Source: Brachyspira hampsonii 30446 (lineage in GTDB: Bacteria; Spirochaetota; Brachyspiria; Brachyspirales; Brachyspiraceae). Taken from it: a stretch of DNA of 64,000 nt. The notes beneath the pieces are model-generated. The model was not told the origin of the DNA. It did no database searches and saw only the letters and a list, made by a program, of their open reading frames with translations. The translations under genes were made by a program, and so were the position numbers. Each line of letters begins with the position of its first letter. Position 1 is the first letter of the stretch. Shown here piece by piece: positions 16,613 through 55,573 of this stretch. The stretch is from positions 932,894 through 996,893 of the forward strand of contig NZ_JH994111.1 of the NCBI RefSeq assembly GCF_000316195.1, written 5' to 3'.

Positions 16613-16935
16613 TAGACCTGTTGCAATTTTGTATTTTTATACAGTTATGATTAAAAATATATAATATAAATTTTATTTATAGTAGTTTTATATATTATTT
16701 TTTGTTTTAAATGTGATATAATTTTATACAAATAAGATATAAAAATGCAGCCTTTCGCCACAGGCGTACTTCGTATGTGCCACACCGAAGGCGGACAGCG
16801 TCACAAAAGAAGTGGGGTTTGGCACGACTGTGTACTTCGTAGGCAAAGCCCCAATTATTAAAACTATAAATATTATTTTTAAATTTATTATATAATAATA
16901 TCACTATATGTATGTACAAAATTGCAACAGGTCTA
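16613..16935 (+). mobile_element. MITE-like element type 2, intact ends
   Basis: The 19-bp terminal repeat GACCTGTTGCAATTTTGTA is perfectly complemented at the right end (TACAAAATTGCAACAGGTC), and both ends are flanked by TA; TTAT is found outside both TAs. Inside lies an AT-rich arm, then a GC-rich core at about 16744-16853 that begins ATGCAGCCTTTCGCC and ends GGCAAAGCCCCAATTAT, then another AT-rich arm. The core shares long stretches with type 1 elements. A 37-codon frame starts at the ATG of the core but is not kept in other copies. Its only sister in the window is at 55245-55573, in the opposite orientation. Confidence 0.85.
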
Positions 16936-51751: not shown

Positions 51752-53563
51752 ATGGCTAAAAGTATTATAAATATAGTTAACATATCTAAAAGATTTGTTC
51801 ATAAAGTTCTGCTTGATAATGTCAATTTGCTTATAGAAGAGAAATCAAAGATAGGTATGATAGGACGAAACGGAGCAGGAAAAACTACCCTTTTGAAAAT
51901 CCTTATGGGACTTGAAGAGGCTGATGACGGAGATATAATATTTTCTGATGATGTAAAAATAGGTTATCTTCGTCAGCAGGGTGATTTTGATGATAATGAG
52001 AAGGTAATAGATTATCTTACAAGAGTTACATCAAAAGAATCTTGGAAATGCTCTAAAATAGCCAGCAGATTTGGAATAGATCATATAAAAGTTAATAATA
52101 ATTTGGGAAGTTTATCAAGCGGATATAGAATGCGTGTAAAACTTGCTGAGATGATGCTTTATGAACCTAATTTTTTAATACTCGATGAACCTTCAAACTT
52201 CTTGGATTTAAATACATTGATAGATTTGGAAAATTTTTTAACAGATTATAACGGAGGTTTTTTAATAGTTTCGCATGATAGAGAATTTCTTAAAACAACC
52301 TGTGAAAAAACTATAGAAATGGAAAACGGCAAAATAACTTATTTTCCCGGTAATATAGAAGACTATTTTGAATATAAAGAAGAAAAAGAGTATACAATAA
52401 AAAAGTATAATAAAAATGTTGAAGAGAGAAAAGCACATTTAGAAAGATTTGTTGAAAGATTCAGATATAAAGCTACGAAAGCAAAAGCTGTACAGTCTCG
52501 CATAAAGCAGATAGAAAAATTAAAAACTATAGAAATTACTCACCCTGCAAAAAATATTAGGATAAAACTTCCGGAAGTTCCAGAAAAAAAAGGTTTTGCT
52601 CTTATATCTGATGATTTGGCTGTAGGATACGGAGAGAAAATAGTTGCTGAAAGCGGAAGAATAGAAATACCTAGAGGAAGCAGAGTGGCTGTTCTAGGAC
52701 AAAACGGAGAAGGTAAAACTACTTTTTTAAGAACTATAGCAGGCAGACTTGAGCCTTTATTTGGTACTTATAATTATTCTTATGGCATAAAGATATCATA
52801 TTTCGGAGAGGATACATATAAAAATGTAACTTCAAATGATACAGTATTATCCTATCTAAAAAAGAATGCTAAACAAGGATTATTGACTCAGGAGCTTTTA
52901 ACTCTTTTGGGAAGTTTTTTATTTTCTGGTGAAGATGTGAATAAAGATGTAAAGGTTTTAAGCGGAGGAGAGATGGCTAGGCTTTCACTTCTTGCTGCTA
53001 TTACACAATGTGCTGATGTGCTTATATTGGATGAGCCCACTAACCATTTGGATTTTGAAACTGTTGAGGCACTTGCTTCTTCTTTAAGAGATTACGGCGG
53101 AACAATATTCTTCACTTCGCATGACAGAACTTTTGCTAGTTTGCTTGCTGATACTATTATAGAGGTAAAAAATAAAAAACTTTCTCTTTATTCAGGAGAT
53201 TATGAGGCTTATGTATATAGAGTTCGTTTAGATGCTTTGGAAGAAGAAGAAAAAGAATTAGAGTATCAAAATAAAAGTAATGTTAAAGAAAATAGCGATG
53301 ATAAAAATACTAATAATTATGAAGAGAGAAAAAAAATTAGAAACAGGCTTTCGAGATGTGAGTCTTTGCTTAAAAAACATGAAAACAAAATAGATGATTA
53401 TAAAAAAGAAGAAGCTGAGATATTAAAGTTTTTTGAGACATCTGTAAATTATGATGACGAAAAAAGCAAAAGACTTTTGGAAGTAAAAAAGCTTATAGAA
53501 GAAACAGAAAATGAATGGCTTTTAATTAATGAAGAGATAGACAGTATAAAATCTATGTTATAA
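51752..53563 (+). CDS. ABC-F family ATPase (ribosome-associated type)
   Basis: A 603-residue protein with two ATPase domains and no membrane part: Walker A GRNGAGKTT and GQNGEGKTT, signatures LSSGYRMRVKLAE and LSGGEMARLSLLA, Walker B FLILDEPSNFLD and VLILDEPTNHLD. A linker of about 60 residues (KAHLERFVERFRYKATKAKA) and a C-terminal coiled coil (residues about 515-600) identify ABC-F (Uup/YbiT/EttA type). Such proteins act on the ribosome; some give antibiotic resistance. Subgroup not resolved. Same strand as murD and the amidohydrolase-like gene. Confidence 0.9.
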   Translation: MAKSIINIVNISKRFVHKVLLDNVNLLIEEKSKIGMIGRNGAGKTTLLKILMGLEEADDGDIIFSDDVKIGYLRQQGDFDDNEKVIDYLTRVTSKESWKCSKIASRFGIDHIKVNNNLGSLSSGYRMRVKLAEMMLYEPNFLILDEPSNFLDLNTLIDLENFLTDYNGGFLIVSHDREFLKTTCEKTIEMENGKITYFPGNIEDYFEYKEEKEYTIKKYNKNVEERKAHLERFVERFRYKATKAKAVQSRIKQIEKLKTIEITHPAKNIRIKLPEVPEKKGFALISDDLAVGYGEKIVAESGRIEIPRGSRVAVLGQNGEGKTTFLRTIAGRLEPLFGTYNYSYGIKISYFGEDTYKNVTSNDTVLSYLKKNAKQGLLTQELLTLLGSFLFSGEDVNKDVKVLSGGEMARLSLLAAITQCADVLILDEPTNHLDFETVEALASSLRDYGGTIFFTSHDRTFASLLADTIIEVKNKKLSLYSGDYEAYVYRVRLDALEEEEKELEYQNKSNVKENSDDKNTNNYEERKKIRNRLSRCESLLKKHENKIDDYKKEEAEILKFFETSVNYDDEKSKRLLEVKKLIEETENEWLLINEEIDSIKSML

Positions 53564-53591
53564 GTAAAATAAAATGGAGGAAGAGTCAAAT

Positions 53592-55172
53592 ATGAGAATT
53601 TTTAAAAATGCCAAAATATACTCTATGGATAAAAATGACAGTATTTATGAGGCTTTAGCTGTTGAAAACGGCAGAATATCATTTGCGGGCACTAATGAAG
53701 AAGTATTAAAAAAATATTCAGATGCTGAAGATATTATTGATTTGGAGGGTAAAACTGTTATACCGGGATTTAATGACAGCTGTGTTAATTTTGTAGGTTT
53801 TGCCCGTTTTAATACTATGCTTAATTTAAGCAAATGCGAATCTATAAAAGAGGTTATTGAATTAGCTAAAAATGCTGAAAAATATGAAGGCTGGATTATA
53901 GGCTGGGGTTGGAATCAGGATTATTTTGAAGAGAAAAGAATGCTTAATAAAAATGATTTAGACAGCATATCTAGTGAATTTCCTGTAGCCTTTAGAAGAG
54001 TATGCGGTGAAATGATAGTTGCAAATAGTAAGGCACTTGAAATTTGCGGTGTTACTGAAAAAATGAAATCTGACAGTATAGATTTTGAAAACGGACTTAT
54101 AAGTTCTAAGGATATGATATTAATTTTATCAAAAATTAAGTCATTAGAAATAGATACTTTAAAATCAATAATATTAGATACTCAGGAAGAATTTTTCAAA
54201 ATGGGTATTACTTCTGTACAGACAGATGATTTGAGAAGTTTACCTGATTTTGATTATAGAAAAATTATAGATGCTTATCAAAAACTTCATAGAGAGAAAA
54301 AACTAAAAATCAGAGTATGCGAGCAGGCACAATTTATCAATAAAAAAGATATAGATGATTTTAGAGAATATTATTATTATCAATATATTAATGATGAAAG
54401 ATTCAAAGTGGCTCGTATAAAACTTATTATAGATGGCGGTATAGGTTCAAGGACAGCACTTTTAAGAGATGATTATAATGATGCTAAAGGTTTCAGAGGC
54501 GTTACACAGTATAAACAGGAAGAACTTGATGAATTGGTAGAATATGCTAATAGCTTGGACTATTCTTTAGCTATACAGGCTACGGGAGATGGTGCTATTG
54601 ATATGGCATTAAACTCAATAGAAAAAATAAAAGATACCAAAGATTTTAAATATAGAAGAAATGGTTTAGTATATGCTCAAATAACAGATAAGCAATTATT
54701 TGAAAGAATGAAGGAATTGAATGTGGGTATATATTATCAGCCTATATTCCTTCACTATGATATGCATATTGTTGAAAATAGGGTAGGTAAAGAAAAATCT
54801 TCTACTTGTTATGCTTATAAAACTGCCAAAGATATGGGAGTACATATTGGATTCGGATCATCAGGTCCTGTTGATGATATTAGTGTTATGGAAGGGATAC
54901 ATTGTGCTGTTAATAGAGAGGATTTAAATGGCTGGCCTGAAAATGGATGGATACCTCAGGAAAAACTTACAGTAAAAGAGGCAGTTTATCTTTATACTAT
55001 GGGAAGTGCTTATATGTCTTCTGAAGATAATATTAAAGGAAGCATCGAAGAAGATAAATTGGCTGACTTTGTTGTTTTAGACAGGGATATATTTGAAGTA
55101 GACACTAAAGAAATCAAAGATATTAAGATATTAAAAACTATAATCGACGGAGATATAGTTTATAGTGCTTGA
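53592..55172 (+). CDS. YtcJ-like amidohydrolase fold protein lacking metal ligands
   Basis: A 526-residue TIM-barrel protein that aligns with the YtcJ amidohydrolase group from end to end (VIPGFNDS, SRTALLRDDY, GSIEEDKLADFVVLDRD). All metal-binding residues seem changed: the HxH of DSHxH is C64-V-N66, the H of the H-x-x-GD motif is Q329 (QATGD), the RIEHA motif reads GLVYA, and the Asp of GSDAP is S424 (GSSGP). It therefore looks like a non-hydrolytic relative. Start at ATG 53592 with GGAGG 11 bp upstream, inside an alternative longer start at 53574. Followed by a terminator. Confidence 0.8.
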   Translation: MRIFKNAKIYSMDKNDSIYEALAVENGRISFAGTNEEVLKKYSDAEDIIDLEGKTVIPGFNDSCVNFVGFARFNTMLNLSKCESIKEVIELAKNAEKYEGWIIGWGWNQDYFEEKRMLNKNDLDSISSEFPVAFRRVCGEMIVANSKALEICGVTEKMKSDSIDFENGLISSKDMILILSKIKSLEIDTLKSIILDTQEEFFKMGITSVQTDDLRSLPDFDYRKIIDAYQKLHREKKLKIRVCEQAQFINKKDIDDFREYYYYQYINDERFKVARIKLIIDGGIGSRTALLRDDYNDAKGFRGVTQYKQEELDELVEYANSLDYSLAIQATGDGAIDMALNSIEKIKDTKDFKYRRNGLVYAQITDKQLFERMKELNVGIYYQPIFLHYDMHIVENRVGKEKSSTCYAYKTAKDMGVHIGFGSSGPVDDISVMEGIHCAVNREDLNGWPENGWIPQEKLTVKEAVYLYTMGSAYMSSEDNIKGSIEEDKLADFVVLDRDIFEVDTKEIKDIKILKTIIDGDIVYSA

Positions 55173-55244: not shown

Positions 55245-55573
55245 TAGACCTGTTGCAATTTTTTACATACATATAGTGATATTATACATAATAAATATAA
55301 AAATAATATTTATAGTTTTAATAATTGGGGCTTTGCCTACGAAGTACACATTCGTGCCAAACCCCACTTCTTTTGCCGAATAGGCACCTACTCGGTGGTG
55401 ACCCATACAAAGTACGCCTTTGGCGAGAAGCAAAAAGACTGCATTTTTATATCTTATTTATATAAAGTTATATTACATTTAAAACAAAAAATACTATATA
55501 AATTACTGTAAATAAAATCATATCCTATATTTTTAAGTTAACTGTATAAATTTACAAAATTGCAACAGGTCTA
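55245..55573 (-). mobile_element. MITE-like element type 2, reverse orientation
   Basis: Ends TA-GACCTGTTGCAATTTT and AAAATTGCAACAGGTC-TA, with TTAT outside both TAs, as at 16613-16935. Read on the minus strand, its left arm (ATAAGATATAAAAATGCAG), AAAAGAAGTGGGGTTTGGCACGA and GTGTACTTCGTAGGCAAAGC match that copy almost base for base, but a middle part of the core is different (CACCACCGAGTAGGTGCC). No conserved reading frame. It lies between convergent genes. Confidence 0.85.

Follow-up and report, generated by a model that had tools for sequence, protein, structure and literature searches.

A conserved Brachyspira YtcJ-type amidohydrolase homologue with a replaced metal site, probably a metal-free pseudoenzyme

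Our analysis of a 64,000-nucleotide stretch of the Brachyspira hampsonii 30446 genome (the window; contig NZ_JH994111.1, positions 932,894 to 996,893) identified a gene, here termed pseudo-YtcJ, whose product is probably a metal-free pseudoenzyme that was derived from a zinc-dependent YtcJ-type amidohydrolase and retained for binding, assembly or regulation. Comparison of the gene across the genus and with its relatives demonstrated that the active site was lost, that the loss had a single origin, that the protein remained under purifying selection and that the gene is linked to an ABC-F ATPase gene. Positions of the gene, of its upstream features and of the codons at the former active site are given in Table 1.

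Table 1. Window positions of the pseudo-YtcJ gene, its upstream features and the codons of the former active site.
Feature	Position	Strand	Remarks
ABC-F ATPase gene	51752..53563	+	directly upstream of pseudo-YtcJ, 28-bp gap
Shine-Dalgarno GGAGG	53576..53580	+	~11 nt 5' of ATG 53592
pseudo-YtcJ gene	53592..55172	+	526 aa; Amidohydro_3 (PF07969) fold
C64-V65-N66, former HxH metal ligands	53781..53789	+	within genus: 64 C/S/N, 66 N/R
E140, former catalytic CGH His	54009..54011	+	fixed in all orthologues
K277, bridging Lys normally carboxylated	54420..54422	+	retained in all orthologues
Q329, former metal-ligand His	54576..54578	+	fixed in all orthologues
Y361, former metal-ligand His	54672..54674	+	Y/H/N within genus
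S424, former metal-ligand Asp	54861..54863	+	S/A within genus

The reading frame runs from an ATG at 53592 to a stop codon at 55170-55172, and this start is supported by a stop codon immediately 5' of the corresponding ATG in several Brachyspira orthologues. An upstream ATG at 53574 overlaps the Shine-Dalgarno sequence and was rejected as the start. The protein matched the Amidohydro_3 profile from end to end (1-472 of 472; E = 7.2e-80, 270 bits against a curated cut-off of 29.7), which identifies it as a full-length YtcJ/Amidohydro_3 protein, and no signal peptide was seen in it. A plasmid search with the protein returned a single match, at 34%. The AlphaFold2 model (pLDDT 90.5, pTM 0.90) showed the amidohydrolase barrel and beta-sandwich and was weaker around S424 (mean 67 for residues 421-430), and its best PDB matches were the intact Pyrococcus metal hydrolases 3igh and 3icj (TM 0.83 and 0.82 by target).

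In Amidohydro_3 enzymes the metal ligands are H, H, K (carboxylated), H, H and D, and in the bile-salt hydrolase BwBSH1 of this family, where the ligands were assigned against 3ICJ, 3MTW and YtcJ with K373 as the carboxylated lysine, replacement of any single one of the six by alanine abolished activity, which also needed H196 (PMC13081902). From its motif and position, and without a direct alignment to BwBSH1, H196 is taken to be the histidine of the R-x-CGH motif. The window protein carries the motifs PGFNDSCVNF (C64, N66), AIQATGDG (Q329), LVYAQI (Y361) and GSSGPV (S424), so that five of the six metal ligands are replaced (H64C, H66N, H329Q, H361Y and D424S) and only the lysine of the binuclear site of a functional YtcJ enzyme, K277, is left. 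The initial annotation had reported that every metal ligand was changed, through the motifs CVN, Q-x-x-GD, VYA and SSGP; all four were found as described and account for these five positions, while K277 escapes the claim. To them our analysis adds a seventh active-site residue, the catalytic CGH histidine, in whose place all orthologues have E140, bringing the replaced residues to six of seven. On these residues it is very unlikely that the protein acts as a zinc hydrolase.

An alignment with homologues, which the initial annotation had proposed as a check, showed that all seven active-site residues (H64, H66, H140, K277, H329, H361 and D424) are kept by all 104 close homologues from other bacteria, a count taken after a few divergent Fusobacteriales tandem copies had been set aside for their partly altered sites. 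With columns treated as independent and the active-site columns named from outside knowledge (that of E140 after inspection), the 24 columns conserved in at least 98% of these homologues had been lost at 6 of 7 active-site positions in comparison to 1 of 17 others (Fisher P = 3e-4), those at the 90% level at 6 of 7 in comparison to 4 of 49 (P = 4e-5), and 44 of 46 kept core columns, K277 included, were invariant within the Brachyspira clade in comparison to two of the six replaced active-site columns (P = 8e-4). These tests indicate that the active-site positions have been freed from a constraint that still acts on the scaffold, and the single loss among 17 columns agrees with the earlier description of the rest of the domain as well kept.

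Orthologues were found in 23 of 26 Brachyspira genomes (83-98% identity). The same loss, which the initial annotation had suggested looking for in orthologues, was present in each of them, and a recurrence across 23 genomes rules out a sequencing or assembly error. E140, K277 and Q329 were invariant, whereas position 64 was C, S or N, position 66 N or R, position 361 Y, H or N and position 424 S or A. Variability at the replaced positions is as expected if metal binding had been abandoned rather than rebuilt. If the protein were still a hydrolase dependent on metal, a rebuilt mononuclear site could in principle draw on C64, E140 and a carboxylatable K277 in the window protein, and on H361 in some orthologues; in the B. 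pilosicoli orthologues that have N64, N66, E140, Q329, N361 and A424, E140 and K277 alone remain strong candidates, and the fixed new His and Cys residues include no plausible ligand, making such a site improbable. Other His or Asp residues placed at the metal site would have spoken against the initial annotation. By residue inventory, the protein contains only five His, and no new His that resembles a ligand has become fixed across the clade; the fixed Cys residues (82, 152 and 243) lie outside the motifs. Displaced metal ligands were rejected on this inventory, as it contains no fixed substitute His or Cys.

The pseudo-YtcJ protein is under ordinary purifying selection. Values of dN/dS were 0.02-0.10 among near relatives and 0.02-0.09 for the close pairs listed, with a median of 0.10 over 248 pairs (Nei-Gojobori), in comparison to 0.116 for MurD and 0.066 for ABC-F in the same genomes, and to 0.23 and 0.11 for two intact YtcJ paralogues, each measured in few genomes. 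No internal stop or broken copy occurred among the 23 orthologues. A gene that is decaying and still unbroken would be expected to lose its catalytic site early, and three Brachyspira genomes (G001, G003 and G019) do lack the gene, which is thus not essential to the genus; the low dN/dS between close species, the open frames and the kept core positions nevertheless rule decay out for practical purposes and leave it the least probable of the explanations considered. Loss of the catalytic residues in a fold that is kept, under purifying selection and repeatedly across species, marks a pseudoenzyme, and a dN/dS of about 0.1 with a kept core and a shared loss indicates a conserved pseudoenzyme of single origin, in line with the new role that the initial annotation had preferred over random decay.

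A tree built from 94 proteins united the Brachyspira sequences in one clade (SH-aLRT 100), whose sister group consisted of six Fusobacteriales proteins (SH-aLRT 99). These nearest relatives (L134-L139; 45-50% identity) differ from pseudo-YtcJ in that all seven of their active-site residues are intact. For most positions a single loss on the Brachyspira stem would suffice; H361 persists in some members of the genus, and its loss probably took place inside the genus. The close kinship of the two groups suggests horizontal transfer between Brachyspira and Fusobacteriales, in either direction. On the question of gain or loss of the gene in G001, G003 and G019, the ABC-F tree did not resolve the order within the genus.

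The three Fusobacteriales YtcJ loci that were checked are flanked by genes for a Peptidase_C26-like protein and a sodium:alanine symporter and not by ABC-F. In these loci, L161 to L163, genes for Peptidase_C26, YtcJ and an AGCS sodium:alanine symporter form a trio (Pfam confirmed the families in L161 alone), possibly an uncharacterised catabolic operon for amino-acid amides or gamma-glutamyl compounds, and from these neighbours the ancestral enzyme may have acted on a substrate of one of these two kinds. Other Fusobacteriales loci (L159, L160, L144 and L145) carry YtcJ genes in tandem, where copies with a partly changed metal site (HHQKDHD, HHQSYHD and NHHNSHE) stand beside intact ones, and it is possible that the changed copies are further pseudoenzymes or members of active/inactive pairs.

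The ABC-F gene lies just 5' of pseudo-YtcJ, at short distance, in every orthologue-bearing Brachyspira locus examined, including those of B. pilosicoli, where the linkage is kept though the wider neighbourhood differs. From this arrangement the two genes are likely to be co-transcribed. In G019, which lacks pseudo-YtcJ, the next gene after ABC-F is a convergent cdsA-like gene, and no remnant of pseudo-YtcJ separates the two. Against the curated models for EttA, Uup and every named resistance class the ABC-F protein stayed below cut-off, and with 380.6 it only just passed the cut-off of 380 set for NF000355, the general model for ribosome protection. Just 3' of the pseudo-YtcJ gene, at 55246-55572, lies a MITE-like element, about 330 bp long, whose inverted ends match exactly (AGACCTGTTGCAATTTT); a further copy occupies window positions 16614-16934, and the genome contains about 14 copies of nearly full length (74-100% identity) together with numerous fragments.

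The protein is probably made in cells. An 'Amidohydrolase 3' of 60.6 kDa (D8IAM3) was detected by mass spectrometry in B. pilosicoli immunoproteomics, in a band shared with four other proteins (PMC5415613). The calculated mass of the B. pilosicoli orthologue is 60.56 kDa, while the two other full-length PF07969 proteins of that genome, both lipoprotein-like, are of 63.1 and 63.6 kDa. By mass and annotation alone, D8IAM3 is thus probably the pseudo-YtcJ orthologue.

Under the explanation that we favour, the binuclear metal site and the catalytic histidine of a zinc-dependent YtcJ-type ancestor would have disappeared on the Brachyspira stem, and the product would have been retained as a folded cytosolic pseudoenzyme; we infer that it contains no metal, carries out no hydrolysis and functions by binding. 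What it binds may be a small molecule akin to the substrate of the ancestor (an amide or a derivative of an amino acid), taken up in the retained barrel pocket, or it may be another protein; pseudo-YtcJ would then serve as a sensor, a stabiliser or an assembly subunit, the kind of part that pseudo-dihydroorotase plays for aspartate transcarbamoylase. A rival explanation makes pseudo-YtcJ a regulatory or decoy subunit of the two full-length, intact YtcJ paralogues encoded in the genome, and inactive/active pairs are known in the amidohydrolase superfamily (PMC7053772). Both paralogues, however, carry lipoprotein-type signal sequences that are lacking in pseudo-YtcJ, so that they are probably exported; they share only ~29% identity with it, and G019 carries both of them without the pseudo-YtcJ gene. 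A partnership with the paralogues is therefore disfavoured and appears highly improbable.

The invariant K277, E140 and Q329 are evidence against the binding explanation, as they would equally fit a new metal-free active site. Lys277 with the new Glu140 and Gln329 could form a catalytic site at the barrel mouth, of acid-base or Schiff-base type. K277 is present in all orthologues despite the loss of its metal partners, while three degenerate Fusobacteriales copies have lost it (N or S), and the clade has fixed new residues (E140, Q329 and T331) where the family otherwise shows no variation. However, 324 of the 526 columns (62%) are invariant across the clade, and three invariant pocket residues are accordingly weak evidence; the conserved triad was not accepted as demonstrating a new active site. 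Such a catalytic site is rather unlikely, and the same doubt attaches to the wider proposal of a metal-free activity or ligand sensing based on Lys277 and the two residues newly fixed at positions 140 and 329, with a possible link to translation by way of the neighbouring ABC-F ATPase. If correct, either activity or sensing on these residues would represent a new function on the amidohydrolase scaffold.

With the metal-free binding or assembly pseudoenzyme as the preferred explanation, the annotation as a metal-dependent hydrolase that follows from the domain match alone is almost certainly wrong, and the supposed hydrolase would drop out of metabolic models of Brachyspira gut spirochaetes. 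The gene also provides a clean natural case in which a binuclear metal site appears to have been abandoned once, with the scaffold under strong selection and close intact relatives available for comparison.

The YtcJ/COG1574/Amidohydro_3 hydrolases (3icj, 3igh and BwBSH1) share with pseudo-YtcJ the full-length fold, the scaffold motifs and Lys277, with 28% identity for 3icj/3igh in the structure alignment; in pseudo-YtcJ, by contrast, the catalytic histidine and all metal ligands except the lysine are replaced. The CRMP or dihydropyrimidinase-related proteins are non-enzymatic descendants of an amidohydrolase, although these belong to a different subgroup and are neuronal proteins of animals. 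The amidohydrolase superfamily is already known to contain pseudoenzymes, and the pseudo-YtcJ member appears to be new, as no earlier naming of it as a pseudoenzyme was found in the open-access literature. The pseudo-dihydroorotase (pDHO) of Pseudomonas aspartate transcarbamoylase differs in belonging to the dihydroorotase subgroup and in having a known partner, where pseudo-YtcJ has none known, but it is likewise an inactive amidohydrolase-superfamily protein that is kept for a non-catalytic role (PMC7053772).
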